A stretch of 41,413 bases of DNA from Allobrachymonas sp. (GTDB taxonomy: Bacteria > Pseudomonadota > Gammaproteobacteria > Burkholderiales > Burkholderiaceae_C). This document shows positions 54-41,028 of this stretch, piece by piece (within the stretch, counting starts at the first letter, position 1; each line of letters opens with the position of its first letter). The position numbers and the translations under genes are program-made. The notes beneath the pieces were generated by a model. It searched no databases. It was not told where the DNA came from and saw only the letters and a program-made list of their open reading frames with translations. The DNA lies in NCBI GenBank assembly GCA_030529505.1, contig JAUMWT010000017.1:1-41413 (forward strand), read 5' to 3'.

Positions 54-292
54 GAGTCTGTTTAAAGTCTTTCCATGTGTGCGCAAGCGCAACAAATGGA
101 CAGGCTCTTTGTTGCACGCTTTGCCAAGACAGCGAGTCTTGGCAAGGCGTGCGCCGCGATCCTGGCCATTTGCTGCCTTGCAAATGCGCGCCGGGCGGCT
201 GGTCCGTTCGTGCCCTGTGCTTCGTGCTTTGCGCCTTGCGGCTACTGCCTGTGCCAGGCAAGGCACACGATGCGAAGATTTTGAACAGGCTC
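54..292 (-). mobile_element. MITE-like element, family A copy 1
   Basis: Non-coding element of about 239 bp. Read on the minus strand it begins GAGCCTGTTCAAAATCTTCG and ends in an imperfect inverted copy near 54-72 (GAGTCTGTTTAAAGTCTTT). It aligns along most of its length with the copy at 34577-34798. It contains a perfect hairpin, TTGCCAAGAC/GTCTTGGCAA, at 121-145. The right boundary touches TTA (293-295), which is the stop codon of the leftward gene; the left flank is CTA (51-53), an imperfect TNA duplication. The termini resemble the left end of the IS5-family element at 40989, so mobilisation in trans by that type of transposase is inferred. Short open frames inside overlap one another and look random. 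Confidence 0.75.
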
Positions 293-2983
293 TTATAACT
301 GATGCGTCACGATCTTGAAGTCGGGGTCTTCTTCATAGGTGTTGATGCTGAAGCCCAGGCTGGTCATGAGGCGCAGCATGCCGGTGTTTTTGGCCAGCAC
401 CAGGCCGATGATTTCGCTCAGGCCTTTCTCGCGCGCCACGTCCATGATGGAGCGCATCATGCGCGAGCCGATGCCTTTGCCGGCAAAGTCGTCGGCCACG
501 AGCAGCGAGAACTCGCAACTGCTGCTGTCGGGGTTGGTGATGTAGCGCGACACGGCGATGATGCGGTCGGGCTGGCGGTCGGCCTCATCGGCTTCGTCGC
601 CCAGCCGGGTGTTTTGCAGCACGGCCACCAGCGCCATTTCGCGGTCGTAGTCGATCAGCGTGAGGCGCGAGAGCATGCTCGGCGGCATTTCGGTGATGGA
701 CGAGGCGAAGCGGTTGTAGCGGCTTTCGGGGCTGAGGCCGCGCACCAGCTCTTGCAGCATCTGCGCGTCGTCGGGGTGGATGGGGCGCACGGTGTAGGTG
801 CTGTCGCCCGGCAAGGGCCAGGATTGGTGAAAGCGCGCAGGGTAGGGCAGGATGGAGAGGTGCTGGTAAGGCCGCGGCGTGGAAACGTTGTCGACGATGA
901 TGCGCGCATCCACGGCCACGGCGCCGTTTTCGTCCACGATGATGGGGTTGATGTCCATTTCGCGCAGCTGGGGCAGTTCGCACACCATTTCGGATACGCG
1001 CAGCAGGACTTGCTCCAGCGCCTCTTGATTGACCGGATTGGCCCCGCGCCATGCGCCCATGATTTGCGCCACGTTGGAGTGTTCGATCATCTGCCGCGCC
1101 AGGAACTGGTTGAGCGGGGGCAGTTCCATCGAACGCTGGCCGTACAGCTCCACGGCATGGCCGCCAGCGCCAAAGGCGATGACCGGGCCGAAGGGCGCTT
1201 CGGTGCTCATGCCGATGTACAGCTCTCGCCCGCGCGTTTGGCGCGCCATGCGTTGCACCGATACGCCGTTGATGCGTGCGTTGGGCATTTGGCGCGCCAC
1301 GCTTTTCATCATGCGCTCGAACACATCGCGCACGGCCACGCCATTGCTCACGTTCAGCACCACGCCGTCCACGTCGGATTTGTGCGCAATGTCTGGTGAA
1401 TCGATCTTGAGAGCCACGGGGTAGCCCAGTTGGCTGGCCAGCATCACGGCCTCGCTGGGCGTGCGCGCCAGAATGGTTTGCGTCACCGGTATGTGAAAGG
1501 CCGAGAGCAGGGCCTTGGACTCCATTTCGGTGAGTACGTAGCGGCGCTGGGCCAGCACGCCTTCGATCAGCATGCGCGCGCCTTCCACGTCGGGAGCGGC
1601 CAGGTGGGTCAGGGGCGGCGGCGTTTGCTGCAGGGATTGCTGGTTGCGGTAATAGGCCGAGATGTTGCCAAAGGCGTTGACGGCTGCGTCGGGCGTGCGG
1701 AAGGTGGGGATGTTGGCATCCACCAGCAGGGCGCGCGCGGCTTCGACCGAGACGCCCCCCATCACGCAGGCCAGCAGCGGCTTGCGGCCGCTTGTGCGCG
1801 CCTGAATCAGGGCTTGTGCCAGGGCGCTCATGTCCACGCCCGGCTTGGGCGACTGGATGACGAGGATGCCGTCCAGGCCCGGGTCGCGCGCGGCTGCGGC
1901 CAGTGCGGCGGCAAAGTGTTCGGGCGTGGCGTCTTCGGTCAGATCGATCAGATCGCACAGGGTGGCCTTGGGCAGCACTTGCGCTTGCAGTTCTTGGGCG
2001 CGCTCTGCGCCCAGCCGTCCCAGTTGCAGGCCCAGATTGGCGGCGCGGTCGGCCGCCAGCACGCCTGGCCCGCCGCCGTTGGTGATGATGCCCAGCCGGT
2101 TGCCCACCGGCTGGTAGCGGGCGGCCAGGCATTGCACCGCCGAAAACAAATCGCTGAACGAATGGATGCGCACGGCCCCCCCGCGGCGCAGGGCGGCGTC
2201 AAACACTTCGTCACTGCCCACGATGGCGGCCGAGTGGGTCAGGGCGGCGCTTTGGCCATCTTCGCTGCGGCCGGCCTTGAGCACCACCACGGGCTTGCTG
2301 TTGGCGGCCACGCGCAGCGCGCTCATGAAATGGCGCGCGTCGGGAATGCCCTCCAGATACACCACGATGCTCTGGGTGTGCGGGTCATTGGCCAAAAAAT
2401 CCAGCGCATGCGCCAAACCCACGGCGCTGTGCTGGCCCAGCGTGATCACGCTGGAAAAGCCCACGCGGTTTTGCTGCGCCCAATCGATGATGGATGCGGT
2501 AAGCGCGCCCGATTGCGACACCAGCGCCAGCGCCCCTGGCTTGACCAGCGGGCCCAGGGTGCTGGCGTTCAGCCCTTGCCGCGGGCGCTGAAAACCGCGC
2601 CCGTTGGGGCCGATCATCCACATGCCATGCTGGCGCGCCACGTGGTGCAGATGCCGGGCCTGCTCGGCGTCGATACCGTTGGCAATCACCAGCGCGGCCT
2701 TGCAGTTGATGCGCCCGGCCAGTTCCAGCGCGGTGGCGATCTTGTCGTGCGGCAAGGCCACAACGGCCAGATCAGCGCCCGTGTGCACCAAATCGGCCAG
2801 CCGCCCTTCGGTGGTGTCGATGTCCATGAAGGTGATGCGACCGCTGTAATGGGCAGAGCTGATCGCCTCGTGCAAGAGGGCCGCATCGGCATAGGCCGGA
2901 TCGTTTGCGCGCGCAGTGGGGCTGCCGGCGAACACCGCCACCGAAGACGGTGCCAGCAGGGAAGTGAGATAGTGCCTGTCCAT
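293..2983 (-). CDS. Acetate--CoA ligase (NDP-forming)-like / GNAT acetyltransferase fusion protein
   Basis: About 896 residues. Domains in order: an N-terminal CoA-binding Rossmann domain (SSVAVF near residue 10), succinyl-CoA-ligase-like domains (GPNGRGF, SQSGALTASIIDW, TNGGGPGVLAAD), an ATP-grasp domain (VALKIDSPDIAHKSDVDGV, about 490-700) and a C-terminal GNAT domain (about 730-890, FAGKGIGSRMM is the acetyl-CoA loop). Domain order and length match the Pka/Pat protein lysine acetyltransferases that control acetyl-CoA synthetase. The segment ALTHSAAIVGSD keeps the His that is phosphorylated in active ADP-forming acyl-CoA synthetases, so ligase activity is not excluded. I start at the ATG at 2983 (MDRHYLTSLLAPSS), where the family homology begins; an upstream in-frame TTG at 3031 would add 16 residues. 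The stop codon TAA directly abuts the MITE-like repeat at 54-292. The gene stands alone. Confidence 0.88.
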   Translation of the reverse strand: MDRHYLTSLLAPSSVAVFAGSPTARANDPAYADAALLHEAISSAHYSGRITFMDIDTTEGRLADLVHTGADLAVVALPHDKIATALELAGRINCKAALVIANGIDAEQARHLHHVARQHGMWMIGPNGRGFQRPRQGLNASTLGPLVKPGALALVSQSGALTASIIDWAQQNRVGFSSVITLGQHSAVGLAHALDFLANDPHTQSIVVYLEGIPDARHFMSALRVAANSKPVVVLKAGRSEDGQSAALTHSAAIVGSDEVFDAALRRGGAVRIHSFSDLFSAVQCLAARYQPVGNRLGIITNGGGPGVLAADRAANLGLQLGRLGAERAQELQAQVLPKATLCDLIDLTEDATPEHFAAALAAAARDPGLDGILVIQSPKPGVDMSALAQALIQARTSGRKPLLACVMGGVSVEAARALLVDANIPTFRTPDAAVNAFGNISAYYRNQQSLQQTPPPLTHLAAPDVEGARMLIEGVLAQRRYVLTEMESKALLSAFHIPVTQTILARTPSEAVMLASQLGYPVALKIDSPDIAHKSDVDGVVLNVSNGVAVRDVFERMMKSVARQMPNARINGVSVQRMARQTRGRELYIGMSTEAPFGPVIAFGAGGHAVELYGQRSMELPPLNQFLARQMIEHSNVAQIMGAWRGANPVNQEALEQVLLRVSEMVCELPQLREMDINPIIVDENGAVAVDARIIVDNVSTPRPYQHLSILPYPARFHQSWPLPGDSTYTVRPIHPDDAQMLQELVRGLSPESRYNRFASSITEMPPSMLSRLTLIDYDREMALVAVLQNTRLGDEADEADRQPDRIIAVSRYITNPDSSSCEFSLLVADDFAGKGIGSRMMRSIMDVAREKGLSEIIGLVLAKNTGMLRLMTSLGFSINTYEEDPDFKIVTHQL

Positions 2984-3031
2984 AAGCTGAGCCCTTGTTT
3001 TGAAGTGGGTTTGCGGCTTGTTGGCGCGCAA

Positions 3032-3574
3032 TGCACGTGCATGGCTACATTGTCACAACAGCAGCGAACATATTAATGTGATTTGCCTCTGTAGCCGATT
3101 CAGCAAGGGCAGGCAGCTGCTGCAGATGTGGCTTGGCTTGAGTGAATTAGCAGCCAGGCCGTTTTTGCTCAAACCCTGCCAACCGTACGCGGCTTGGGCG
3201 GGCGTTGGGGTGAATATCAAGCGCCCGTGAGGAGATCGTAAACAGGTTCTAAATGCCAGCGCCTTGATTTGATGCGCGCGCCTAGCCTTCTTTCAAGGGA
3301 CAGTTGGGCTCATCAGGAAAATCATCGCTTGGAGCGGGCAGTGAATACAGCCAATTGATACGGCGGACTTGCAAAAGCCTGAAAAGACGGGCTGTACGGC
3401 AGGCTGTGACTGGTTTCACACCATTAACAAATTATTTCTTTATGGTGAACTTTGCTGGCCGGGCCGCTTGCTAAATCGGGCTTTTCTCTATTAGGATTGC
3501 TCTCCTGTTGGCTAGGTGGCGCATGCAAATGCAGCTGCTGTTATCAATGATTCCTAATTGAGAAAAGGAAAATT
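3032..3574. other. Intergenic region with a repeat remnant
   Basis: A 543-base gap between the divergent acyl-CoA ligase/GNAT gene and the SWIB gene. It must hold both promoters, but I see no convincing -35/-10 pair. It contains a 33-base repeat remnant (3217-3249) and a relatively AT-rich stretch near 3420-3445 (ACCATTAACAAATTATTTC), which could be an upstream element for the SWIB gene. No credible gene was found. Confidence 0.5.
3217..3249 (-). repeat. Solo end of MITE-like family B
   Basis: TCAAGCGCCCGTGAGGAGAT followed by CGTAAACAGGTTC matches the outer end of family B as read at 37350-37385 (TCAAGCGTCCGCGAGGAGAT, then TTTGAACAGCTTC). It is followed by TAA, the TNA-type flank seen at other copies. 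The rest of the element is missing, so this is a decayed or truncated copy. Confidence 0.6.
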
Positions 3575-3868
3575 ATGGCTACCTCGAAAACTGCAACAGA
3601 TAAACCCGCAGCCAAAAAGCGCGCGCCCAATGCGGCCTTCATGAAGCCGCTGACCCCCAGCGCCGAGCTGGCCGCCGTAGTGGGCCCTGCACCCCTGCCG
3701 CGCACCGAAGTCATCAAGAAGCTGTGGGACTACATCAAGGCCCATAATCTGCAAGATGCGCAAAACAAGCGCAACATCAATGCCGACGACAAGCTGAGCA
3801 AAGTGTTCGGCAAAAAACAGGTCACCATGTTCGAAATGGCTGGTCTGGTGGGCAAGCACCTGTCTTGA
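3575..3868 (+). CDS. SWIB/MDM2 domain-containing protein
   Basis: A 97-residue protein. Residues 1-20 are a Lys/Ala/Thr-rich basic tail (TSKTATDKPAAKKRAP). Residues 22-97 form a SWIB/MDM2 fold: FMKPLTPSAELAAVVG, LPRTEVIKKLWDYIKAHNLQDAQNKRNINADDKL and VTMFEMAGLVGKHLS are the family signatures. SWIB domains are best known from eukaryotic SWI/SNF complexes and also occur as small stand-alone proteins in some bacteria, where their role is poorly defined; a nucleoid or DNA-associated role is inferred only from the basic tail. The ATG has a good Shine-Dalgarno (AAAAGGAAAATT before it). The gene is monocistronic and ends in a strong terminator at 3911. Confidence 0.88.
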   Translation: MATSKTATDKPAAKKRAPNAAFMKPLTPSAELAAVVGPAPLPRTEVIKKLWDYIKAHNLQDAQNKRNINADDKLSKVFGKKQVTMFEMAGLVGKHLS

Positions 3869-3910
3869 GCCAATCCTTCCGCAGGCCCTGTTTCGACTGG
3901 GCCTGGCAGA

Positions 3911-3945
3911 AAAACCGGCATGCTGCAAAGCCTGCCGGTTTTTTT
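3911..3945 (+). terminator. Rho-independent terminator of the SWIB gene
   Basis: Stem AACCGGCA / TGCCGGTT with a short loop, preceded by A residues and followed by a run of seven T, 43 bases after the SWIB stop codon. Confidence 0.85.
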
Positions 3946-4132
3946 ATGGGCGCGTGACCAGGCAAACGGTAGAGCTTGGCTTCTTTCTGTTTGCAAGCTG
4001 TTGGCCAACGATAGAAGCCGGCGCTTGACAGGCGCTTTGCACGAGGGCTGAGGCCGTTCTCTTACCGGACCAAAACAAACGCCGCATGGAGCATCGCGGT
4101 AAGGGCGGATGGACACAGCAGATGCCGGCAAC

Positions 4133-4166
4133 AAAAAACGGGCCAGCTCAATCGACTGGCCCGTTT
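4133..4166 (-). terminator. Rho-independent terminator of clpB
   Basis: Perfect 11-bp stem AAACGGGCCAG / CTGGCCCGTTT with a 9-base loop. On the minus strand the stem is followed by a T run (the A run at 4133-4138 on +). It lies 20 bases past the clpB stop codon. Confidence 0.88.
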
Positions 4167-4185
4167 GTGAGACATGCTCTTGTGC

Positions 4186-6795
4186 TCAGTGTGCCTGATC
4201 GGTGCGCTCAAACTCGAACACGCCCGGGTTCTTGACCGGATCGACCGTGACGCGAATGGTCGATTTGGGCGGGAATTGGCCTTCGAGCAACGCTTTGGAC
4301 AGCGGGTTTTCAATCCGCTGCTGAATGGCGCGCTTCAGGGGCCGTGCGCCAAACACGGGGTCGAAGCCGACCTTGGCCAGTTCCTCCAAGGCAGCCGGGG
4401 TCACGTCAAGCGCCAGATCCATTTTGTGCATGCGCTGCTCCAGCACGTGCAGCTGGATCTTGGCGATGTTGGCGATGTGCGCTGCGTCCAGGCCGTGGAA
4501 GACCACGATCTCGTCAATCCGGTTGAGAAACTCGGGCCGGAAGTGGGTTTTGAGTTCTTCCCACACGGCGTCCTTGATCTCGTCTTGCGGCTGACCGGCC
4601 ATCTGCTGGATGATGGGCGAGCCGATATTGCTGGTCATGACGATGACGGTGTTCTTGAAGTCCACGGTGCGGCCCTGGCCGTCGGTCAGGCGCCCGTCGT
4701 CCAGCACTTGCAGCAGGATGTTGAACACATCGGGGTGGGCCTTTTCGATTTCGTCAAACAGGATCACGCTGTAGGGCTTGCGGCGCACGGTTTCGGTGAG
4801 ATACCCGCCTTCGTCGTAGCCCACATAGCCGGGCGGCGCGCCAATCAGGCGGGCTACGCTGTGCTTTTCCATGAACTCGCTCATGTCGATGCGGATGAGC
4901 TGCTCTTCGCTGTCGAACAAGAAGCCGGCCAGCGCCTTGGTGAGTTCGGTTTTGCCCACGCCCGTGGGGCCGAGGAAGAGGAAGGAGCCCGTGGGGCGGT
5001 TGGGGTCGCTCAGGCCCGAGCGCGAGCGCCGAATGGCGTTGGCCACGGCCGAGATGGCCTCGTCTTGTCCCACCACACGCTCGTGCAGCTTGGCTTCCAT
5101 CAGCAGCAATTTTTCTCGCTCGCCCTGCATCATCTTGGCCACGGGAATGCCCGTGGCGCGGCTCACCACTTCGGCGATTTCTTCCGCGCCCACCTGGGTG
5201 CGCAGCAGCTGGTTGCCTTTGCCCCGGCCGTCTTCGGCATTCTCTTTGGCTTGCGCTTCTTTCAGGCGCTGCTCCAGCTCGGGCAGCTTGCCGTATTGCA
5301 ACTCGGCCACTTTGTTGAAGTCGCCTTTGCGAGTGGATTCCTCGATCTGGAACTTGAGTTTGTCCAGCTCTTCGCGCACCTGCTGGCTGCCCTGGGCGGC
5401 GGCTTTTTCGCTTTTCCAGATTTCTTCCAGATCGGCGTATTCCTTTTGCAGGGCGGTGATTTCCTGCTCGATCACCTCCAGGCGTTTTTGCGAGGCTTCG
5501 TCCTTTTCTTTCTTCAGGGCTTCGCGCTCGATCTTGAGCTGGATCAGGCGGCGGTCGAGCTTGTCCATCGCCTCGGGTTTGGAGTCGATTTCGAGCTTGA
5601 TTTTGGCTGCGGCCTCGTCGATCAGGTCAATCGCCTTGTCGGGCAAGAAGCGGTCGGTGATGTAGCGGTGGCTCAGCTCCGCAGCGGCCACGATGGCGGG
5701 GTCGGTGATCTCCACGCCGTGGTGCACTTCGTACTTTTCTTGCAGGCCGCGCAGAATGGCGATGGTGGCTTCCACTGTGGGCTCGCCCACCAGCACTTTC
5801 TGAAAGCGCCGCTCCAGTGCCGCGTCTTTTTCGATGTATTTGCGGTATTCGTCCAGCGTGGTGGCGCCCACGCAGTGCAACTCGCCGCGCGCCAGGGCCG
5901 GCTTGAGCATATTGCCCGCGTCCATCGCGCCATCGGTTTTGCCCGCGCCCACCATGGTGTGCAACTCGTCGATGAAAAGGATGGTTTGGCCCTCGTCACG
6001 CGCCAATTCCTTGAGCACGTTTTTCAACCGCTCTTCAAAGTCGCCGCGGTATTTGGCACCGGCCAGCAGGGCGGCCATATCCAGCGCCAGCACGCGCTTG
6101 CCCTTCAATGTGTCGGGCACTTCACCAGCCACGATGCGCTGGGCCAAGCCTTCAACGATGGCGGTTTTGCCCACGCCGGGCTCGCCAATCAGCACGGGGT
6201 TGTTTTTGCTGCGGCGTTGCAGCACTTGAATGGTGCGGCGGATTTCGTCGTCGCGGCCAATCACGGGGTCGAGCTTGCCCTGGCGCGCGCGTTCGGTCAG
6301 ATCCAAGGTGTATTTTTTCAGGGCTTCGCGGTTGCTTTCGGCATCGGCGCTATCCACGCTTTGCCCGCCGCGCACAGCGTTGATGGCGGATTCCAGGGCC
6401 GAGCGGTTCAGGCCATTGGCGCGGGCGATATCGCCGATATCGCCTTTAGCGTCGGCGGCGGCCAGCAGAAACAGCTCGCTGGCAATGAACTGGTCGCTGC
6501 GTTTAATGGCTTCTTTCTCGGTGGCTTGCAGCAGCTTGATCAGATCGGGCCCGGGTTGCACCTGATCTTGCCCTTGCACCTGTGGCAGGCGGTTGACCGC
6601 GCCTTCAAGCGCAGCCGCCAAACCGGCCACATTGACGTTGGCGCGCTGCAGCAGCGAGCGCGGGCCGTCGTCTTGCTGCAGCATGGCCAGCAGCACGTGC
6701 GCAGGTTCGATGTAGGCATGGTCTTTGCCCAGAGCCATGCTTTGGGCGTCGGCCAGGGCTTCTTGGAACTTGCTGGTGAATTTGTCGATTCGCAT
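4186..6795 (-). CDS. clpB: ATP-dependent chaperone ClpB
   Basis: 869 residues, full length for ClpB. It is a cytoplasmic AAA+ disaggregase that works with DnaK/DnaJ/GrpE to rescue aggregated proteins after heat stress. Domains: an N-terminal Clp_N domain ([18 protein letters not shown]), NBD1 with Walker A GEPGVGKT (about residue 200) and Walker B ILFIDELH, a coiled-coil middle domain (about 400-520, [20 protein letters not shown]), NBD2 with Walker A GPTGVGKT (about 605) and [15 protein letters not shown], and the C-terminal domain ending near [10 protein letters not shown]. The ATG at 6795 gives the canonical family N-terminus and has GGAG upstream; an in-frame upstream start would add 15 non-homologous residues. 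A sigma32-like promoter lies at 6839-6866 and a terminator follows the gene. Monocistronic. Confidence 0.97.
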
Positions 6796-6838
6796 GAATG
6801 ACTCCGTTTCAGGATTTTTTGAAAAGTAACTGATCAGC

Positions 6839-6866
6839 AACTGGGTGCATGGCCTGGCTTTTCAAG
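6839..6866 (-). promoter_or_regulatory. Putative sigma32 (heat-shock) promoter of clpB
   Basis: On the minus strand, CTTGAAA (6866-6860), a 13-base spacer, then ACCCAGTT (6846-6839). The sigma32 consensus is CTTGAAA-N13-15-CCCCATNT: the -35 matches fully and the -10 matches at most positions. Transcription would start near 6832, about 37 bases before the clpB ATG. The match to a known clpB regulator strengthens the call. Confidence 0.72.
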
Positions 6867-6917
6867 GGCAGCAAGCTACCCCTTCAAAGCCCGGTTCGTA
6901 TGCTGCGCGCGCCCATG

Positions 6918-6956: not shown

Positions 6957-6975
6957 GAAGAAGCATTGGGCGTGC

Positions 6976-9287: not shown

Positions 9288-10079
9288 TCAAGCGCCTTTG
9301 CGGTGGTGCAGCAGCTCGGCCGCAGTGGCGTTGGGTGGTGTTTGCAGCAGCTGGGCAGGGCTATCGTTTGCAACGATGTGCCCTTGGTGCAAGATGACCA
9401 ATTGGCTGCCCAGCGCCAGGGCTTCGTCAATATCGTGGGTGATGAAGACGATGGTGCTGCCCGTGTGTTGCTGGATGTGCTTGATTTCTTCTTGCAGGGC
9501 GCGGCGGGTGATTTCATCCACGGCGCCAAAAGGCTCATCCATCAGGATCAGATCGGGGCGTGCCGCCAGGGCACGGGCAATACCCACGCGCTGGCGCTGC
9601 CCGCCCGAAAGCTGATGCGGGTAGCGGCCCAGCAGATCGGGCGCGAGGTGGACGATGCCCAGCAACTCTTCCACACGCTGCTGGATGCGATCGGGCGGCC
9701 ATTGCAGCAGGGTGAGCACGTAGGCGATGTTGGCGCGAATGTTCATGTGCGGAAACAGGCCCGACTCCTGAATCACGTAGCCGATGCTGCGCCGCAGCTG
9801 CACCAGGTCGGTCTGGGCCAGGTCTTGCCCGCGCACGATCACGCGGCCGCTGTCGGGCTGGATCAGGCCATTGAGCAAACGCAGCAAGGTGGTTTTGCCG
9901 CTGCCCGACTGGCCGATCACCGTGGTGAAGCTGCCTGCAGCGATATGCAGGTTGATGTCGTGCAGCACGGTTTTGCCGTTGAACTGCTTGCTGACGTGAT
10001 CCAGTTGAATCATGGGGGCAGCAGCGTGAGCCGTTGTTGGGGGTGCCGAGCAGGCACCGGTGATGACGCGTTCGGTCAT
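9288..10079 (-). CDS. Osmoprotectant/quaternary-amine ABC transporter, ATP-binding protein
   Basis: 263 residues. The cytoplasmic ATPase of an OpuC/YehX-type importer for glycine betaine, choline or similar compounds. Motifs: Walker A GQSGSGKTTLL (about residue 57), Q-loop VIQESGLFPHM, signature LSGGQRQRVGIARAL (about 156), Walker B LILMDEPFGAVD and the H-loop FITHDIDEAL. The segment GAVDEITRRALQEEIKHIQ is characteristic of the glycine betaine ATPase group. No C-terminal CBS domains are present, unlike ProV/OpuAA. The start ATG overlaps the stop of the binding-protein gene (ATGA), showing translational coupling in a permease, binding protein, ATPase operon. Confidence 0.92.
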   Translation of the reverse strand: MTERVITGACSAPPTTAHAAAPMIQLDHVSKQFNGKTVLHDINLHIAAGSFTTVIGQSGSGKTTLLRLLNGLIQPDSGRVIVRGQDLAQTDLVQLRRSIGYVIQESGLFPHMNIRANIAYVLTLLQWPPDRIQQRVEELLGIVHLAPDLLGRYPHQLSGGQRQRVGIARALAARPDLILMDEPFGAVDEITRRALQEEIKHIQQHTGSTIVFITHDIDEALALGSQLVILHQGHIVANDSPAQLLQTPPNATAAELLHHRKGA

Positions 10080-12280: not shown

Positions 12281-12329
12281 TGGCCTTGCAGATGGTAAAA
12301 GACAGTCAGGTCGTGATCTTGCTGACGTC

Positions 12330-12426
12330 GCACGGGCCATGCGCTTCGCCATGTACCAAAGTTTGCGCCTTGCATCCCGTCCCGCGCGACCTCCAGTCAT
12401 CATACGATGAGATTTTGAACAGGTTT
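12330..12426 (+). repeat. Truncated MITE-like family B copy abutting ychF
   Basis: The right part of family B: GCACGGGCCATGC, TTGCGCCTTGCATCCCGTCC and ACGATGAGATTTTGAACAGG align with the copy at 24338-24498. The left end is not recognisable, so the start is approximate. The outer end is followed immediately by TCA at 12427-12429, the complement of the ychF stop codon TGA. Confidence 0.65.
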
Positions 12427-13524
12427 TCAGACGTTGAACAGGAAGTTCATCACATCCCCATCTTTCACCACATAGTCCTTGCCCTCGGCGCGCATTTTTC
12501 CGGCTTCCTTGGCGCCTTGTTCGCCTTTGTATTGGATGAAGTCGTCAAACGAGATGGTTTGCGCGCGGATGAAGCCGCGCTCAAAGTCGCCGTGGATGAC
12601 GCCTGCGGCTTGTGGCGCGGTGTCGCCTTGGCGAATGGTCCAGGCGCGCACTTCCTTGACGCCAGCGGTGAAGTAGGTTTGCAGGCCCAGCAGCTGGTAG
12701 CCTGCGCGGATGAGGCGGTTCAGGCCGGGTTCTTCCTGCCCCAGCTCTTGCAGGAATTCGGCGCGGTCTTCGTCGCTCATTTCTGCCAGCTCGGCTTCGA
12801 TTTTTGCGCAGATGGCCACCACGGGCGCGTTGCCGTTGCTTTGGGCAAATGTCTTGAGGCGATCGAGCAGCGGGTTGTTCTCGAAACCGTCTTCGGCCAC
12901 ATTGCCCACGAACATGGCGGGCTTGGAGGTGATGAGGCAAAGCGGTTTGAGCAGGGCTTTTTGCTCGGCCGAGAGGTCAAGAATGCGCACGGGCTTGCCT
13001 TCGAGCAGGCCGGCTTGCACCACTTCCAGCACTTTGAGCATGGCAGTAGCTTCTTTATCGTGGCCGGATTTGGCGGCCTTGGTGTAGCGCTGCACGGCTT
13101 TTTCAACGGTGCCCAGGTCGGCCAGGCAGAGTTCGGTCTGGATGACTTCGATGTCGGCAATGGGGTCAACGGTGCCGGCCACGTGCACGACGTTGGGGTC
13201 TTCAAAACAGCGCACCACGTTGACGATGGCATCCGTTTCGCGGATGTGCGCCAGAAACTGGTTGCCCAGCCCTTCGCCCTTGCTGGCGCCAGCCACCAGG
13301 CCGGCAATGTCCACGAATTCGACGATGGCGGGCAGCACCCGTTCGGGTTTGACGATTTCGGCCAGTTGCTGCAGGCGGGGATCGGGCACTTCGACGACGC
13401 CCACATTGGGTTCGATAGTGCAGAAGGGGTAGTTTTCAGCCGCGATGCCGGCTTTGGTCAGGGCGTTGAACAGGGTGGACTTGCCCACATTGGGCAGGCC
13501 CACGATTCCGCATTTCAGGCTCAT
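12427..13524 (-). CDS. ychF: Redox-responsive ATPase YchF (Obg-family P-loop protein)
   Basis: 365 residues, normal length for YchF/Ola1. A ribosome-associated P-loop protein that prefers ATP over GTP, implicated in translation and oxidative stress. Motifs: G1 GLPNVGKST (residues 8-16), [25 protein letters not shown] (G3 and switch region), the atypical G4-like region around [10 protein letters not shown], and the C-terminal TGS-like domain ([42 protein letters not shown]). The ATG lies after GAGGAAAAACA. pth, a frequent upstream partner, is not present. A MITE-like end touches its stop codon. Confidence 0.96.
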
Positions 13525-23405: not shown

Positions 23406-23600
23406 GGGAGCATGCAGAATCGCAACGAAAGGCGATTGAAGATGGCGCGGGCGGGGATGCAAGGCGCCCGACAAAACGCATGCCGAGGTGCATGCGCCCG
23501 TGCGGCAGGAACAAGATGGGCTACAAGATTTGCGGCAGCGTAGGTCGGTTCATAGCCGCCCGTGTTCAAGCGCCCGCGAGAGGGAATCTGCAGCAGCTTC
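23406..23600 (-). repeat. Diverged MITE-like family B copy
   Basis: Aligned in the same orientation as the copy at 37198-37385: GGGATGCAAGGCGCCCGAC, the CATAGCCCGTGCGACAT-like section GTGCATGCGCCCGTGCGGCA, ACAAGATTTGCGGC and TTCAAGCGCCCGCGAGAGG. Termini are mutated (GGGGAGCATGCAGAATC at left, GGAATCTGCAGCAGCTTC at right), so it is an old copy. Boundaries are approximate. Confidence 0.6.
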
Positions 23601-23675: not shown

Positions 23676-23955
23676 GGGCCTGTTCACGCTCCTTTGAACG
23701 ATGCCTTGCGCTTCAAAAGCTCACTCGTCAAGGCGGCAGCTGCCGCCAGGGTTTGCTCCTTGGCCAAGCTGGCAACGCAGACGATGGTCTTTTGAGCGCA
23801 ACCCGAAGAAGGGGAGCAGTCTGTCAGGGCCTCGCTCCTTGTGGTGCTTCTTGCGCGACACACCCGGTCTGCGCTGCTATTGCATACATTTTTCTACGCC
23901 TCGATTGATGCCCTGGCAGAGAACTTCGCATCATCAAAGGAGCGTGAACAGGCCC
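23676..23955. mobile_element. MITE-like element, family C
   Basis: A 280-bp non-coding element bounded by a perfect 22-bp terminal inverted repeat starting GGGCCTGTTCACGCTCCTTT (23676-23697 and 23934-23955). The core differs from families A and B, but the terminal GCCTGTTCACG matches the left end of the IS5-family element at 40989 (GAGCCTGTTCACGATC). The right flank is TAA, a TNA target; the left flank is CCA, so no intact duplication is visible. It contains no credible gene. Confidence 0.78.
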
Positions 23956-24337: not shown

Positions 24338-24498
24338 GAACCTGTTCAAAATCTCCTCGCGGGCGCTTGAAAATGGAAGCGGGCGGTCTGTTGCGTTGCA
24401 AATCTTGTCCATAGCACGGGCCATGCACTGCAATTTGCGCATTGCATCCCATTCCGCTCTACTTCCAATCACTTCACGATGAGATTTTGAACAGGTTC
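24338..24498 (+). mobile_element. MITE-like element, family B copy (intact)
   Basis: A 161-bp element with near-perfect 18-bp terminal inverted repeats: GAACCTGTTCAAAATCTC at left and GAGATTTTGAACAGGTTC at right. The core has GGCGCTTGAAAATGGAAGCG, TTGCAAATCTTGTCCAT and TTGCGCATTGCATCCCATTC, all shared with the other family B copies. The right flank is TGA, a TNA site; the left flank CGG does not match. It lies between the 6S terminator and the 3' end of hemN. Confidence 0.8.
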
Positions 24499-27933: not shown

Positions 27934-28393
27934 GGCGTGTTCGGCTGAGGGTGAAAGGTTGAAAAAGGCGCCCGTGTGGCGAAGGGCAAACATCAAAGAA
28001 AGGCAAGGCGTGGCGTAAATAGGTGACGGAATCGCCAGACGGCAAAAACGCGCGCCGCAAATACGGGCACAATCTGTAAGAACTTGTCCAAAATCTCCTC
28101 ACGGGCGCTTGAATATGGATGCGGGCGGTCTGCGGCGTTGCAAATCTTGTCCATCGCTCAAGCTATGAACTTCAATTTGCGCCTTGCATCCCATCCCGAT
28201 CCCTATCCAAATCGCCTCACGATGAGATTCTGAACAGGTTCTAATGAAAGATGACTGGCTTGAGGTGGTTTGGCTAGGCATTGCACGGTGAGATGGCGTG
28301 CTTGCCGGCAAATGCCAAACGCCGTGCTTCCCAACTTTTCCAATCGGTGTTCAGCCTCGTTTTTCCGAACTGCGATCGCCTGTATTCATCACC
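27934..28393. other. Divergent intergenic region argH / algZ-like
   Basis: 460 bases that must hold the promoters of argH (minus) and of the kinase/regulator operon (plus). A complete MITE-like element occupies 28080-28241, so each gene keeps about 150 bases of private upstream DNA. I see no convincing promoter hexamer pair or ARG box. Confidence 0.5.
28080..28241 (+). mobile_element. MITE-like element, family B copy with TAA duplication
   Basis: A 162-bp element collinear with 24338-24498 (GGCGCTTGAATATGGATGCG, TTGCAAATCTTGTCCAT, TTGCGCCTTGCATCCCATCC). The ends are GAACTTGTCCAAAATCTC and GAGATTCTGAACAGGTTC, slightly mutated inverted repeats. It is flanked on both sides by TAA (28077-28079 and 28242-28244), a 3-bp TNA target-site duplication, which is direct evidence of transposition. 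Confidence 0.85.
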
Positions 28394-34313: not shown

Positions 34314-34576
34314 AGCCAGGCGGCGAAACGTTTTGCCGCTTCATGTATTGGCTGAACAGCCGTGCGGGGGCAGTTTCGATGATGTTTCCTGCTGTGGGTG
34401 AATGCCATTTCTTGCCTGCCGCTGCGCAGATGCCGGTTGATGGACATGTGGGCGATGGCTTGGCGCACAGGGCAGGGCGCTATGCCTGATGCATGGGCAC
34501 ATGCCTTGTGCCATGAACAAAAAAGCGGCTGCGTGCAGCCGCTTTCGTGCCCACTGCCATTCATGCCGATGTTTCA
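34314..34576. other. Intergenic region holding the prfA terminator
   Basis: 263 bases between the HAD gene and the MITE-like element. The only feature I can support is the minus-strand terminator at 34519-34545. A GC-rich imperfect inverted repeat just after the HAD stop (GGCGGCGAAACGTTTTGCCGC, 34321 on) lacks a T tract. Confidence 0.5.
34519..34545 (-). terminator. Rho-independent terminator, probably originally of prfA
   Basis: Perfect 11-bp stem AAAGCGGCTGC / GCAGCCGCTTT with a two-base loop and, on the minus strand, a T run (A run at 34519-34524). It faces the minus strand and is now separated from the prfA stop codon by a 222-bp MITE-like insertion. Confidence 0.85.
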
Positions 34577-34798
34577 GAGCCTGTTCAAAGTCTTCGCATC
34601 GTGTGCCTTGCTTGGCAAAGGCAGTGGCTGCAAGGCGCAAAGCACGAAACACAGGGCACGAACGGGCCAGCCGCCCGGCGCGCGTTTGCAACGCAGCAGA
34701 TGCAGCCTTTGCAGAGCAAGCCTTCGGGCAAGGCAGCAAATGACCAGGCTCTTTGTTGCACACCTTGCCAAGACGGGCAGTCTTGGCTGAACAGGCTC
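34577..34798 (+). mobile_element. MITE-like element, family A copy 2 with TCA duplication
   Basis: A 222-bp element collinear with the minus-strand reading of 54-292 (GAGCCTGTTCAAAGTCTTCG, AAGGCGCAAAGCACGAAACA, CAGGGCACGAACGGGCCAGC). The right end is GGCTGAACAGGCTC. It is flanked on both sides by TCA (34574-34576 and 34799-34801), a TNA duplication, and the right TCA is the complement of the prfA stop codon TGA. An internal hairpin CCAAGAC/GTCTTGG lies near 34767-34785. Confidence 0.85.
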
Positions 34799-35902: not shown

Positions 35903-35958
35903 AATGGCAATATCAACTCAAATCGATGCTGAAAATCGGTTATTGGTTTTGTAGCCCT

Positions 35959-36687: not shown

Positions 36688-37432
36688 CGGGTTCTCCGAA
36701 AAATTTTTTAATCGTTGTTGAGCCAAGGGATGGCCAATCGTCAATAGCAGCAAAAAACATGCCTGTTTGGCAGGCTGGCTGGAAATAGGCGGCAAAAAAG
36801 CTCGCTCAAGCGCGATCAGATGCAGCGGCGTGCTTGCGCAGGCCCAAGTCACAGCGTGCGCTTGAGGCAGGCGGGCGATGAAGTAAGCAAGCCATACAAG
36901 CAGCAAGGGCGGCGATCAGGGCTTGCTGATTCGCTCCTTGATGAGCGTTGGATGGGCGAGTGATGGGGCAGGGGTTGAACAGACCGAGGCCGTTTTGCCC
37001 AGCCAATCACGGTTTTATTGACTGGCCGATAACAAACGCTGCCAAACACGCCACAAACCATGCGTGAAAAATGCGTTGGAAGCTTATTCCGCTATGCGAA
37101 CCCAGAGGCCCTAGATGAGTACACCGCTAGAGCCTGCTTTGCCTTGCCCCAATGCCGCTGCGTTGAGATCATCAACAGGCGCTGAAACGCCACGTAAGAA
37201 GCCGTTCAAGATCTCAGCATAAGGCGATTGGGCTAGGGAACGGGATGGGATGCAAGGCGCCCATCAAAGTACATGGCACAGTGCATAGCCCGTGCGACAT
37301 GCGCAAGAGGGTTGACAAGATTTGCAACGCCGCAGACTACCCGCTTCCATTTTCAAGCGTCCGCGAGGAGATTTTGAACAGCTTCTCAACATTTGCAGAG
37401 CAGGGCCGATTGTGGGGCAACAACGCCTCAAT
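36688..37432. other. Intergenic region between hemA and the GYF/DUF805 gene
   Basis: 745 bases on the downstream side of hemA. It contains a complete MITE-like copy (37198-37385). The remaining sequence (36688-37197) shows no recognisable gene, tRNA or terminator. It must contain the promoter of the GYF/DUF805 gene. Confidence 0.45.
37198..37385 (-). mobile_element. MITE-like element, family B long copy
   Basis: A 188-bp element, inverted relative to 24338-24498. Ends are GAAGCCGTTCAAGATCTC and GAGATTTTGAACAGCTTC. The core shares GGGATGCAAGGCGCCCATC, GACAAGATTTGCAACGCCGC and TCAAGCGTCCGCGAGGAGAT, with about 25 extra bases in the middle. The flanks are TAA (left) and TCA (right), both TNA. 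It lies 47 bases past the hemA stop codon. Confidence 0.78.
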
Positions 37433-38725
37433 TCACGGGCGATGCTGCAAAAAAAGCCTTTGCATCAAATCGGCGGTTGGCAGCTGGGCGTCTGGCTCGG
37501 GGTGGTGCAGTTCGCGCAGGGCGCCATGCAGCATTTTGTTGCTGAGGCGGCGGCTGAGATGCTCAAGCACCGCCTCGGCCGATTCGCCGCGCGCCAGTTG
37601 CTTGCGGGCGCGGGCTAGTTCTTGCGCGCGCCAATGGTCGGTCTGCTGGCGCACCTGGCAGATCAGCGGCACCAGGCCCGCGCCGGGGTCGCGCTGCTGC
37701 AGCCAGTGCATGAAGCGTTGCACGCCGTTGTCGATGATGGCTTCGGCCTGGGCCACGGCAGCCTGGCGGCTGGCCTGGCCGGTTTGCACCAGGGCGGCCA
37801 GATCATCCACGGCGTACAGATGCACGCCGGGCAGGTCTTTGACTTCGGGCTCGATGTCGCGCGGCACGGCCATATCCACCAGCAGCATGGGGCCTTGGCT
37901 GTTTTGCCGGCGTGCGTGCACGGCGCGCTCCATTGCGCCCAGACCGATCAGCGGCAGGGTGCTGGCGGTGCAGCTCACCACCACGTCAAATTCGTGCAGG
38001 CGCTGGGGCAACTCGGCCAGCGGCATGCTGTGGCCGTTCACGCGCGCGGCCAGAGCGGCACTGCGTTCGCAGCGACGATTGGCAATGGTGATGTGGCGTG
38101 GCGATTGCGCGGAAAAGTGCGTGCAGGCCAGCGCAATCATTTCGCCTGCGCCCACGAACAGGATGCGCGCCTGGCGCAAATCGCCCAGGTGCTGCGCGGC
38201 CAGTTTGACGACGGCTGCGGCCATGCTGATGCTGTGGCTGCCAATGGCGGTGCTGCTGCGCACCTCTTTGGCAATGGCAAAGCTGCGCTGAAACAGCTGG
38301 TTGAGCGTGCGCCCCAGGCTGCCTGCGCTTTGCGCGGTGCGTACGGCGGTTTTCATCTGGCCCAGTATTTGCGGCTCGCCCAAAACCATCGAGTCCAGCC
38401 CGCTGGCCACGCGAAAGGCGTGGCGGGCGCTGTCGTCCTCTTGCCAAATGTAGGTGTGATTACGCAAGGCGGCGCTGGGCACGCGCCCTTTTTGCGCCAG
38501 CCAGTGCAGCGTCGTTTCAATGGCGCTGGGCTCGCCCGCGCAATAGATTTCGGTGCGGTTGCAGGTGGAGACGATGGCGGCCTCAACGGGCGCACTGCGC
38601 TGTTGTTGGGGCTGTTGGCGCAGTTCGTGCAGGGCGGTTTCGATTTGCTCGGGCACGAATGCAAAGCGGCTCCGCAAATCAAGCGGAGCCGTTCGGTGAT
38701 TCAAGCCCAGGGTCCAAACTGCCAT
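37433..38725 (-). CDS. hemA: Glutamyl-tRNA reductase
   Basis: 430 residues. Reduces glutamyl-tRNA(Glu) to glutamate-1-semialdehyde with NADPH, the first committed step of C5 tetrapyrrole synthesis. The N-terminus MAVWTLGLNHRTAPLDLRSRFAF and the active-site STCNRTEIY (Cys55) are intact, as are GLDSMVLGEPQILGQMKTA, the NADPH-binding VGAGEMI, LLVDMAVPRDIEPEV and the C-terminal dimerisation helices. The start at 38725 is firm because the family N-terminus is exact. A TATAAT box ends only 8 bases before the ATG, so the mRNA may be leaderless. prfA, usually next in the operon, is displaced. Confidence 0.96.
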   Translation of the reverse strand: MAVWTLGLNHRTAPLDLRSRFAFVPEQIETALHELRQQPQQQRSAPVEAAIVSTCNRTEIYCAGEPSAIETTLHWLAQKGRVPSAALRNHTYIWQEDDSARHAFRVASGLDSMVLGEPQILGQMKTAVRTAQSAGSLGRTLNQLFQRSFAIAKEVRSSTAIGSHSISMAAAVVKLAAQHLGDLRQARILFVGAGEMIALACTHFSAQSPRHITIANRRCERSAALAARVNGHSMPLAELPQRLHEFDVVVSCTASTLPLIGLGAMERAVHARRQNSQGPMLLVDMAVPRDIEPEVKDLPGVHLYAVDDLAALVQTGQASRQAAVAQAEAIIDNGVQRFMHWLQQRDPGAGLVPLICQVRQQTDHWRAQELARARKQLARGESAEAVLEHLSRRLSNKMLHGALRELHHPEPDAQLPTADLMQRLFLQHRP

Positions 38726-38726
38726 G

Positions 38727-38762
38727 GCGCGAAATTATAGAATCGGCCCATTTTTTCGCCAG
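38727..38762 (-). promoter_or_regulatory. Putative sigma70 promoter of hemA, close to the start codon
   Basis: On the minus strand CTGGCG (38762-38757), a 17-base spacer and a perfect TATAAT (38739-38734). The predicted start of transcription is near 38727, about two bases before the ATG. The -35 is weak. Confidence 0.52.
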
Positions 38763-38833
38763 CCGCCAAGGGGTACCTGGGCGCTGCATGGGGCTTTGGC
38801 CGCTGTCTTTTGCCCGCAAAAACAAAAACCGAT

Positions 38834-39121
38834 ATGTGGTTTTTCACGCTGATTCTTCACCTGCTCAATTTCGTGGCTTCGGCAGCCTGGCTGGCCACGG
38901 GTTTGCTGGCCTTGCATTGGCTGGGCCACAAGCGCACGGCGAGCGCGACTGTGTTTCACTGGAAGCGCCATTGGCTGTATTTGTTTGCCAGCGGCGTGGC
39001 CGTGTTGCTGGCGGGCCTGCTCATCTTTGGGCGCGACGGCAAGATGCTGACTTACGTGGCGCTGATGCTGGTGATGGGCGTGGTGCAGGCAGGCCTGGCC
39101 CGTGCGGCTGCGCGCAGCTGA
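38834..39121 (+). CDS. Small conserved-type membrane protein, unknown function
   Basis: 95 residues with three predicted membrane helices: about 1-30 (MWFFTLILHLLNFVASAAWLATGLLALHWL), 45-63 (WLYLFASGVAVLLAGLLIF) and 69-90 (MLTYVALMLVMGVVQAGLA), with a basic loop (GHKRTASATVFHWKRH) between the first two. No enzyme motif is visible and I do not recognise a named family. It is divergent from hemA. The Shine-Dalgarno is weak; a TTG eight codons upstream (38810) is an alternative start. Composition matches the chromosome. Confidence 0.65.
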   Translation: MWFFTLILHLLNFVASAAWLATGLLALHWLGHKRTASATVFHWKRHWLYLFASGVAVLLAGLLIFGRDGKMLTYVALMLVMGVVQAGLARAAARS

Positions 39122-39154
39122 TAGGCGGCTAGGTCAAAGGCAAATCCCAGGGCC

Positions 39155-39184
39155 AAAAAACTGAGCCAGCCCAGGGGCTGGCTC
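39155..39184 (-). terminator. Rho-independent terminator of the parvulin gene
   Basis: GAGCCAGCCC / GGGCTGGCTC stem with a very short loop, followed on the minus strand by a T run (AAAAAA at 39155-39160 on +). It lies about 87 bases beyond the parvulin stop codon. Confidence 0.75.
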
Positions 39185-39270
39185 CTTTGGACGGGCATGG
39201 GCAATCATGGGCAATGAATGAGCCTGCTATCCAATCAATAAAAATCAAAGCATCAAAAGCCAGATTGAAT

Positions 39271-40110
39271 TCACTGAATCCGCGCTTTCTTTTCCAGTTC
39301 GCTCAGGTATTTTTCAAACTCGGCGGCTTGCCCGCTTTGCATTTGCTGCTTGATTTGCTCTTTCACCGTTTCAAAGGCGGGGGGTTGGGGTTTGCGGCTG
39401 TCTTCCAGACGGATGATGTGATAGCCAAACTGGGTTTTGACTGGCGCGGATGTGGTTTGGCCTTTTTTGAGCTTTTTCAGGGCGTTGGCAAAGGCGGGCA
39501 CATAGGCTTCGGCTTGCGACCAGCCCAGATCGCCCCCCTGTTTGCCCGAGCCGGGATCAATCGAATGTTTGCGCGCCAGCGCCTCGAACGATTTGCCTGC
39601 GGCCAGTTCGGCCTGCAGCTTGCGGGCTTCTTCTGCGGTTTTGACGAGGATGTGGCGTGTCTTGTATTCCAGGGCGCCCTTGGCGGCATCGGGCAGGCTG
39701 GCCAGCACGCGGTCGTATTCGGCCCTGGCGGCGGCATCGCTGATGGGGTGGTCTTTTTTGTATTGCTCGAACAGCATACTGGCCAGAATGGCGCCGCGGG
39801 CGCTGGCCATTTTGTCGGCGTATTCGGGCGTGAGGTGCAGTTTGCGGCTTTCGGCCTGCTGCACGATCACGGCTTCTTTGATCAGGTGGGCGCGGATTTG
39901 CGCTTCCAGATCGGGGGGCAGGGGTTGCTGGCTGCGCGCAGCGTCTTCTTTGAATTGTTCCAGGGCGGCATCCAGCCGCGCTTTGGGAATGGGCTTGCCG
40001 TTGACGACGGCGACGTTTTGCGCCAGGGCGGCGGTGCTGCAAGCGGCACAAGCAATCAGCAGGGCCGATGCACAGAGTTGGCGAAGCGAAGCGTTTGGCG
40101 TACGGATCAT
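39271..40110 (-). CDS. Periplasmic parvulin-type peptidyl-prolyl isomerase
   Basis: 279 residues. Signal peptide MIRTPNASLRQLCASALLIACAACSTAALAQ with cleavage after ALA-Q expected. The N-terminal SurA-like chaperone part (VNGKPIPKARLDAALEQFKEDAARSQQPLPPDLEAQIRAHLIKEAVIVQQAE) is followed by one parvulin domain (about 140-245: YKTRHILVKTAEEARKLQAELAAGKSFEALARKHSIDPGSGKQGGDLGWSQAEAYVPAFANAL ... FGYHIIRLED). It is a PpiC/PrsA-like foldase for envelope proteins. The ATG at 40110 gives the signal peptide; the open frame extends 16 residues upstream. It lies 85 bases after bolA on the same strand, a common pairing in Burkholderiales. Confidence 0.93.
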   Translation of the reverse strand: MIRTPNASLRQLCASALLIACAACSTAALAQNVAVVNGKPIPKARLDAALEQFKEDAARSQQPLPPDLEAQIRAHLIKEAVIVQQAESRKLHLTPEYADKMASARGAILASMLFEQYKKDHPISDAAARAEYDRVLASLPDAAKGALEYKTRHILVKTAEEARKLQAELAAGKSFEALARKHSIDPGSGKQGGDLGWSQAEAYVPAFANALKKLKKGQTTSAPVKTQFGYHIIRLEDSRKPQPPAFETVKEQIKQQMQSGQAAEFEKYLSELEKKARIQ

Positions 40111-40195
40111 GGTTTTGCAGAAAGGGCGGGTGTGATTGGAATGAGTGAAAACGAACAAAAGCTGAAGCGGGCCAAGGGTATTGACTGGGCGCGGT

Positions 40196-40495
40196 TCAGC
40201 TTTTGACGATCTCGATGGCCAGGGCGTGCAAGCCTTGGCTCATGAAGGGGCGCAGCGCATCATACACAAGGCGGTGGCAGGCCACGCGCGGCTGCTGGGC
40301 AAAGGCAGGTGCGGCAATGCGCACGCGAAAATGCGTGCCGTAGCCCAAGCCATTGGCCCCGGCATGGCCGGCGTGCTGGCCGCTTTCGTCGATCACTTGC
40401 AGGATGCTGGGCTGCAGGGCGGATTGCAAAGCGGCTTGCAACTGGGCGGCGGTTGGAATGGACGGCCTGTTTTCTGTTGTGCTGGATGGGTTCAT
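40196..40495 (-). CDS. bolA: BolA family protein
   Basis: 99 residues. The BolA/IbaG class II KH-like fold: LQAALQSALQPSILQVIDESGQHAGHAGANGLGYGTHFRVRIAAPAFAQQPRVACHRLVYDALRPFMSQGLHALAIEI. The conserved ESGQHAGH region and the His in RVACHRLVYDAL suit Fe-S coordination with a monothiol glutaredoxin. Roles in Fe-S handling and stress morphology are known for the family. The ATG at 40495 gives MNPSSTTENRPSIPTAAQ. The upstream neighbour usual in related genomes, an IspZ/YciB septation gene, is missing; an IS1595-type remnant begins about 30 bases upstream. Confidence 0.92.
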   Translation of the reverse strand: MNPSSTTENRPSIPTAAQLQAALQSALQPSILQVIDESGQHAGHAGANGLGYGTHFRVRIAAPAFAQQPRVACHRLVYDALRPFMSQGLHALAIEIVKS

Positions 40496-40522
40496 GCGAG
40501 CCAATCAATATCAAAAAAGTTT

Positions 40523-40988
40523 GGGGCTTAGGAAGCAAACGCATCAAAGAGGGTCATCTCTGAGCAGTTCAAGCAATGTCTTGTAGAGATCAAGGTGTCG
40601 ATGGTTGAAGCGAAACTCGCTCTCCTTGAGATGCAGCTCGAACTTGTCACGTCGCACGCCATGAAACTGCGCCAGTCGATGTTTGGCATAGCTCCAGAAA
40701 GACTCGATGCCGTTGACGTGCCTGCAGCCTTTGACGAACTCGTTGTTGCCGTGATTGACCCGAAAGTGCTTGTCCAAGCCCCAATCAACCAGCCCATCGT
40801 AACCTCGCCAGCCGTCGGTGTGGATGCTGCTGCTGGGGTCCACTTTGCCGCGGATGATGGCTTGCAGCGTGGCTTTGGAGGCATCGGGGACGATCTCGGT
40901 ATAGACACAATTTTGAATGGCGGTAGTACTTGTTTTTATTTGTAATTTCATTAGGTTGGCATGTGACTGACGCATGTTTGCTTCCTAA
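40523..40988 (-). mobile_element. Internally deleted IS1595-type element, interrupted by IS5-family insertion
   Basis: An inverted pair bounds this segment: CTTAGGAAGCAAACGCATCA at 40527-40546 and, on the complement of 40967-40989, CTTAGGAAGCAAACATGCGTCA-like sequence (first 14 bases identical). Between them lies only the C-terminal half of an IS1595-family transposase. The right inverted repeat is cut at CCTAA by the IS5-family element that starts at 40989. Interpretation as an internally deleted, non-autonomous copy is inferred. Confidence 0.65.
40544..40975 (-). pseudogene. IS1595 family transposase, N-terminally deleted
   Basis: The open frame encodes 143 residues. SSIHTDGWRGYDGLVDWGLDKHFRVNHGNNEFVKGCRHVNGIESFWSYAKHRLAQFHGVRRDKFELHLKESEFRFNHRHLDLYKTLLELLRD is the C-terminal catalytic part of an IS1595-family transposase (second Asp in HTDGWRGYD and the N/E region GIESFWSYAKHRL). 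The zinc-ribbon and the first catalytic Asp, roughly the first half of a normal 230-310-residue transposase, are missing, so the product should be inactive. The ATG used by the frame lies inside the terminal repeat. Confidence 0.82.
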
Positions 40989-41028
40989 GAGCCTGTTCAC
41001 GATCTTTTGCTGCGTGCATACTGAGGCC

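Follow-up and report, generated by a model that had tools for sequence, protein, structure and literature searches.

This study concerns short repeats in a stretch of 41,413 nucleotides from Allobrachymonas sp. (GCA_030529505.1, contig JAUMWT010000017.1, positions 1 to 41,413 of the forward strand; here called the window), which is contig C56 of a 2.39-Mb draft genome in 100 contigs that is 83.5% complete. The repeats resemble miniature inverted-repeat transposable elements (MITEs) and share their ends with an insertion sequence (IS) of the IS5 family at the right end of the window. A first reading, made from the letters of the window without database searches and here called the sequence-only reading, had listed nine copies or remnants in three families, A, B and C. 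The end sequence GAGCCTGTTCAAAATCTT, with up to three mismatches, was found at nine sites in the window against 0.01 expected, and profile searches recovered nine loci; by these two means all nine places were confirmed as copies or remnants of elements. Two of the places were corrected: a remnant given as 12330-12426 reaches left to about 12285, and a piece at 3217-3249 is no more than an end fragment.

Family A is represented in the window by a 239-bp MITE at 54..292 (plus strand; core motif at 177-238), whose flanks CTA/TTA are not identical and whose right flank TTA is the stop codon of a minus-strand gene ending at 293, and by a 222-bp MITE at 34577..34798 (minus; core at 34631-34692) with a TCA/TCA duplication on the stop codon of prfA. 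Family B comprises a 161-bp MITE at 24338..24498 (plus; core at 24395-24444; flanks CGG/TGA, not identical), a 162-bp MITE at 28080..28241 (plus; core at 28137-28186; TAA/TAA duplication) and a 188-bp long variant at 37198..37385 (minus; apex enlarged; core at 37253-37328; flanks TAA/TCA, not identical). It also includes a degenerate copy at 23406..23600 (minus; profile match at 23415-23600), a terminus fragment at 3216..3249 (minus; B profile, E 6.7e-05) and a remnant at 12285..12426 (plus; from the profile search) that has lost its left end and whose right flank TCA is the stop codon of YchF (gene at 12427-13524, minus). The single family C element, of 280 bp at 23676..23955 (plus), has ends GGGCCTGTTCACGCTCC and flanks CCA/TAA, and the core was not found in it. 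The left part of the IS5-family IS lies at 40989..41413 (plus); it is preceded by TAA, its first frame starts from 41029, it contains a run of seven A and it is cut off by the contig end at 41413. Just upstream of this IS, a fragment of an IS1595-family transposase was detected on the minus strand at 40544-40951 (NF033547, 105 bits), and, judged by eye, positions 1-53 of the window are similar to the beginning of contig C95, where the same IS1595 element seems to be present. The product of the window prfA (RF1) is 87-90% identical to those of five same-genus genomes (two of the five matches are partial) and 54-82% identical to those of the remaining genomes whose best match is prfA. Since the identity is highest to same-genus genomes, the window contig belongs to its genus, and contamination of the bin was ruled out.

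The repeats were then counted in the draft genome and in a sample of it made of 40 stretches and the window (828,675 bases; 829 kb). The end pattern with up to two mismatches occurs at 173 sites in the draft and, read backwards, at none. Iterated profile searches of the sample gave 126 loci covering 22.8 kb, or 2.75% of its bases, in agreement with the large MITE population that had been proposed; the density is 1.5 loci per 10 kb in the whole sample and 2.2 in the window. Convergent end pairs 60-450 bp apart numbered 64 and fell into clusters B (46), A (12) and C (4) and two singles, and 61 of them, over all families, measure 152-295 bp. This set takes an inner terminus for one window copy (34577-34751), and the window copies at 54, 28080 and 37198 lie outside it because one end of each has too many mismatches. 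TNA stands on both sides of 28 of the 64 pairs (TNA accounts for 3.1% of positions in the sample), and the flank triplets are identical in 23 pairs, 20 of these being TNA. Genes were called by codon usage with a simple program whose calls cover 77% of the sample, and none of them spans one of the 64 elements; a few elements overlap the end of a called gene, by 57 nt at most, and a gene that an element had split might have been called as two. Families A and B therefore show what is expected of MITEs, being short and without a transposase gene, with inverted repeats shared with an IS and with a target duplication. Identity between nearest neighbours among B copies ranges from 74% to 98.7%, and since it reaches the latter value, some of the copying is recent.

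The elements tend mildly to lie between convergent genes (16 of 63, against 77 of 505 gaps of at least 30 bp). Seven of the 64 abut a stop codon, compared with 7.6% of non-genic TNA sites, and stop-codon targeting was rejected because the own genome shows no enrichment. One B copy is nested in an IS copy on contig C73 with TCA on both sides. At the end of contig C2 (L031) a B-type element adjoins an IS end with only TTA between them; in this place, as in Comamonas denitrificans (L260, about 9790-9960), element and IS stand side by side as if one had used the target duplication of the other.

The resident IS elements carry an IS5-type transposase (NF033580), with PF13340 in its first part and PF01609 in its second. 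The second part, taken from contig C95, scored 145.6 bits with NF033580 against a cut-off of 110, and the first part, from the window alone, scored 91.7, which is below it. The copy on C73 measures 840 bp after subtraction of the nested B element, and a run of seven A is present where its first frame ends. With the 3-bp TNA duplication of the MITEs and the seven-A run, a possible frameshift site, the resident IS may belong to the IS1031 or the IS427 subgroup. Two subtypes were distinguished by their ends, which are CACGATCTTTT in subtype 1 (window, C63 at 38.7 kb, C95) and CAAAATCTTTT in subtype 2 (C63:1974, C4:198, C30:16157, C2:23949). Family A ends match the second subtype exactly over 18 bp, and family B ends differ from it by one or two bases. 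The sharing of ends with IS5-family elements, first read from the window, thus extends to the 173 sites of the genome and to its IS5-type transposases. The window IS is not the best match to those ends, since the second resident subtype fits better. Genome-wide copies lacking inverted repeats or never flanked by TNA, or a genome devoid of an IS5-family element with matching ends, had been named as findings that would tell against this connection; instead, paired inverted ends, TNA flanks and matching IS5-type elements were all found. Of 15 matches to the transposase start, ten lie within about 400 bp of a contig end, where repeats in a draft assembly are expected. Two further IS loci were noted. 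In C95:1-1077 (L137) a 337-aa open frame joins IS1595-like and IS5 transposase parts, either as an assembly chimera or as a real fusion after deletion, and an IS copy on C51 (L139) seems to be split by something with IS-type ends, at the internal position that is also interrupted in the C73 copy.

The three families had been described as unrelated. This view had to be given up for A and B, which are related through a shared central motif, GTTGCAAA...TTTGCGCCTTG, whereas family C is without it. All 12 A copies and 45 of the 47 B copies examined contain the motif. It stops 54 nt short of the right end in ten A copies (48 and 55 nt in the other two), and at least 28 of the 45 B copies share the 54-nt spacing. 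Three of four C copies lack it, and the fourth has a weak match (three mismatches) at a different position. Outside elements a loose form of the motif occurs 187 times in 829 kb, and about 0.06 occurrences per 250 bp are therefore expected by chance. This comparison used the full-length copy at 34577, added the window copies at 54, 28080 and 37198, and omitted a 63-bp A fragment and a 351-bp B pair. A core belonging to the IS elements themselves was rejected: the 80 IS loci hold four cores, each in an element with its own ends, and the one in L260 stands next to the IS, separated from it by TAA alone.

Outside the own genome, the stop codon of prfA stands without an element, as a single stop, in all eight loci examined, two of them from the same genus (L305, L306), which supplies the empty sites in relatives that had been proposed as a check; the eight were drawn from 12 given loci, and the remaining four include three of the same genus. 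The end sites are absent from five same-genus genomes and occur in 22 of 399 genomes overall, being frequent in other genera (102 in G263, 83 in G188, 66 in G359, 51 in G086 and 43 in G326). Match coordinates in G263 and G326 are those of the Vandammella animalimorsus and Allofranklinella schreckenbergeri genomes. A search for B-like elements gave matches, with 67-79% identity among the matches listed, in these two species, G086, G359, Comamonas denitrificans and a Comamonadaceae metagenome-assembled genome, together with one weak match in G188; four same-genus genomes, G384 and two others gave none. At 21 of 22 B-like loci an element of 160-162 bp with paired ends was delimited, and 17 of these elements have identical TNA triplets. 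The MITEs of Comamonas denitrificans bear a variant end, GAACGTGTTC, and an IS5-type IS adjoining one of them, with only TAA between, starts with the same variant. Because MITEs and adjacent IS share this variant, the ends follow the local IS.

The core proved to be far more widespread than these ends. In a plasmid search with a B-like element only its middle matched, on three plasmids; on Cupriavidus basilensis pRK1-5 this middle belongs to an element of 162 bp whose ends are quite unlike those of the query and whose flanks are CTAG/TTAG. A plasmid search with an element of end class c likewise matched only in the core stretch, in five records. As a 46-nt pattern with up to three mismatches, the core is present in 144 of 399 genomes of the family and in 69 of 141 genera, with up to 168 occurrences per genome, and the reversed control gave none in all 399. 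The own genome has none with the ungapped pattern and 19 with a gapped one, which we attribute to a spacing that differs by one base. In the wider order the gapped pattern was found in 4 of 399 genomes, and at class level another gapped B pattern in 1 of 369, the own one. Xenophilus and Comamonas denitrificans are further named hosts of core elements. The local population described by the sequence-only reading is therefore real, but its scope was too narrow, given that the B core occurs in 69 of 141 genera with other ends.

A cross-genus set was assembled from 122 given loci, which yielded 110 distinct elements after removal of four loci without the core at up to five mismatches (L345, L339, L340, L357) and of eight others (repeats, missing flank). 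Of these, 95 are full-length-like and 15 are not; in the 95, a distance of 47-66 nt separates the core from the start of the best inverted ends on either side. Ends were unclassified in 29 of the 95, and in 64 of the 66 classified elements the core is 55-59 nt away from the left end and 56-58 nt away from the right one. Target duplications in the 66 are TNA in 34 (26 identical) and YTAR in 32 (27 identical). Three of the 66 fit no class, and the other 63, elements of about 160 bp, fall into ten end classes, two of TNA type (GAGGCTGAGAG, GAAGGTGTGAAC) and eight of YTAR type (TACAGCAACCCGG, TACTCCGTTCC, TGCAGTGTTCGA, GGACCCTCTGCAC, GGCAACGCTGAAC, TGTCCTGAATTG, GGCCTGCTCGGA, TGTGGTGCTGC), of which GGCCTGCTCGGA and TGTGGTGCTGC have one member each. 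Some of the ten classes are probably related to one another, and the ends of the own genome form an additional TNA type beside them. Ungapped comparisons between classes gave identities of 84% for the core, 44-46% for the inner arms, 32-35% for the outer arms with the ends and 26-27% for the sequence outside the elements, against 25-29% in shuffles. A gapped comparison was added because class lengths differ by a few bases; with up to four elements per class, it gave 87% for the core (shuffled 61%) and 61-62% for the inner arms (shuffled 58-59%). Further afield, one core was seen in an alphaproteobacterial plasmid, Martelella mediterranea pMM593 (L356), with a best inverted repeat of 87 bp and no usual ends seen. 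Phages and viral contigs were rejected as carriers for lack of a credible match: one search gave none, another gave 11 weak matches, none covering more than 80% of the query and the lowest E being 0.9, and the exact gapped core pattern is absent from viral contigs.

As a control, 666 kb of genome G025 were searched by ends, with the core not required. Class g ends formed 26 loose pairs. All 18 pairs of 161-162 bp contain the core (up to six mismatches), which was found in none of 200 random windows; of the other eight pairs, seven are without the core and the eighth encloses one of the 18. With class a ends, all three pairs of 159 bp contain the core, and the three of 200 random windows that matched may be real elements. 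Two end classes carrying the same core thus coexist in one genome. In G025 (L470-L501) ten of 21 hairpin elements abut a stop codon exactly, compared with 15% of non-genic YTAR sites (P 0.0004), and in the stop-abutting elements the target duplication recreates the stop; this test used our own simple gene calls, included three TNA-type elements among the 21 and kept element-adjacent sites in the expectation.

The core can be folded into a hairpin. On 74 distinct cores, 98.5% of cells are paired, compared with 91.6% in shuffles, and structures slid along the sequence fall to 30-41% paired. Five pairs are changed on both sides, against 2.9 in shuffles (a number reached by 12 of 500), and the double-changed cells number 70 against 17.8 (reached by none of 500). 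Pairs 10-38 and 16-31 each occur as G-C, C-G and A-T. The T residues left unpaired at positions 2, 3 and 34 are invariant, and those at 9 and 12 nearly invariant.

From their structure and flanks, families A and B are very probably MITEs moved in trans, that is, gene-less elements with IS5-family ends that resident IS5-family transposases would carry into TNA sites. The comparison between classes points just as firmly to a shared core with exchanged ends. By sequence, hairpin MITEs of about 160 bp keep their 46-nt centre and differ by class in their terminal repeats, and presumably also in the IS5-type transposase that serves them and in the target (TNA or YTAR); the repeats may be replaced, or may drift, as the elements follow a helper IS. 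On balance we favour, with less assurance, the view that the core is under selection as a hairpin. Selection would then act on base-paired DNA, most likely aiding the element's own movement. An element of about 160 bp spans roughly one persistence length of DNA, so that its two ends would come together more readily if the middle were bent, formed a cruciform or bound a host protein, much as has been proposed for IHF in the 155-bp Correia elements (PMC2229807). A tentative extension, which we judge rather less probable than its negation, is that the 46-nt hairpin is a portable chassis in Burkholderiaceae/Comamonadaceae-type bacteria, its ends being exchanged for other IS5-type transposases and targets and the hairpin being required for movement; a role of the core in synapsis is slightly more doubtful still. 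Taken as a whole, the explanation that we prefer and consider likely is that A and B are trans-moved MITEs and local members of a wider group of hairpin MITEs.

Several observations weigh against this explanation or parts of it. No movement has been observed, and a driver IS was identified for none of the ten other end classes. The cross-genus set was gathered by core similarity, which inflates core identity, and identical cores within a genome may stem from recent copying. Both end patterns used in G025 were derived from core-bearing elements; in addition, class g ends gave 144 matches against 29-33 in shuffles, of which just 36 lie within the 18 pairs, and many real class g ends must therefore lie outside the pairs. 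The fold was drawn from the same cores that were used for counting, and relatedness among sequences can raise values above those of shuffles. A copies and long B copies have an enlarged or replaced apex. Finally, in family B of the own genome the core (1.33 bits) is no more conserved than the arms (1.29 and 1.21 bits), and selection is therefore not visible at the depth of this family.

The alternative that survives best is plain common descent, in which an old MITE had its ends drift together with IS5 transposases while a functionless core persisted by recent spread between species. The TNA-type ends form a graded series (GAGCCTGTTCA, GAACCTGTGAAC, GAGGCTGAGAG), the ends follow the local IS in Comamonas denitrificans and family B of the own genome shows no special conservation of the core, as this account would have it; on the other hand, the arms are near the shuffled level between classes with the core still at 84-87%, and double-sided paired changes at five positions would be unexpected under neutral drift. 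We consider common descent alone unlikely.

It is less likely again that the hairpin acts as RNA, stabilising, ending or regulating neighbouring messages and being kept by host selection. The elements are intergenic, and in RNA folding one copy of each family is better than 200 of 200 shuffles (z -5.5, -8.1 and -8.9), values to which the terminal repeats alone contribute; as single-stranded DNA, partial elements (the first 150 nt of B and C, the last 150 nt of A) are not unusual (z -0.69, -1.81 and 0.05). Against a role as RNA, G-T and A-C cells are rare and about equally frequent (6 and 5 of 1207), which, with little power, gives no sign of one strand acting as RNA. The direction of the core relative to tandem genes leans only weakly (19:11 in the own genome, 8:5 in G025), and no Rfam family was recognised: nothing in the window reached a gathering score, and 12 loci gave four matches with E up to 1, all below the gathering scores.

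A third proposal, in which another enzyme recognises the core hairpin, in the way that RAYT transposases recognise REPs, and IS5-type ends were added around it, seems to us improbable. The asymmetric hairpin with its invariant or nearly invariant unpaired T residues would suit such an enzyme, as would a few cores whose best inverted repeat spans 79-91 bp, although just the best-scoring repeat was recorded in these and outer ends may exist as well. The constant spacing between core and ends, shown by 64 of the 66 classified elements, argues against it, as do the lack of an associated gene in the small flanks that were looked at and of a REP-type GTAG/GTGG head (compared with PMC2817692). That A, B and C are merely decayed internal-deletion copies of the resident IS is hardly credible in spite of shared ends of 11-18 bp, given that IS ends and A/B arms agree, by eye, solely in the terminal repeats and that the same core occurs under unrelated ends.

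Hairpin MITEs that travel with different ends, as we prefer to read them, would make it possible to study how non-autonomous elements change from one helper transposase to another and whether very short transposons move with the help of a DNA hairpin; the analysis also names a repeat that is carried by 144 of the 399 genomes sampled in the family. In the literature within scope, which left out most subscription papers, we found neither these families nor the core described, nor any case of a single MITE core that occurs with many ends. Membership of known systems was examined by comparison. Integron attC sites do not fit, since GTTGCAA departs, by eye, from the GTTRRRY half of the consensus RYYYAAC ... 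GTTRRRY. Nor do the elements qualify as Correia elements, which have Neisserial ends and a TA target, the ends here being GARCCTGTTCA with a TNA target. The Correia elements of Neisseria are otherwise alike in length (about 155 bp), inverted repeats and mostly intergenic position, and in their long form about 50 bp of internal sequence include an IHF site with a possible role in transposition (PMC2229807). They are related to IS630 (PMC2817692), whereas the elements here have a covarying hairpin centre and many kinds of ends. MITEAba12 of Acinetobacter is likewise short and is believed to depend for its movement on a coresident IS that has matching ends, but its conservation lies mainly in the terminal repeats and its duplications are of 9 bp (PMC6382973); here, across classes, the centre is kept and the ends differ. 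REP/BIME sequences with RAYT also form many intergenic imperfect hairpins per genome and have a GTAG/GTGG head (PMC2817692). The core here is without a head of this type, although no search was aimed at RAYT genes, and it has terminal inverted repeats and target duplications. ERIC/IRU sequences have a conserved centre but one kind of end, and differ in sequence and host group. These enterobacterial elements are palindromic and about 127 bp long (PMC2229807). MITEs usually keep their ends and carry filler in the middle, whereas here, across genera, it is the middle that is kept and the ends that vary.

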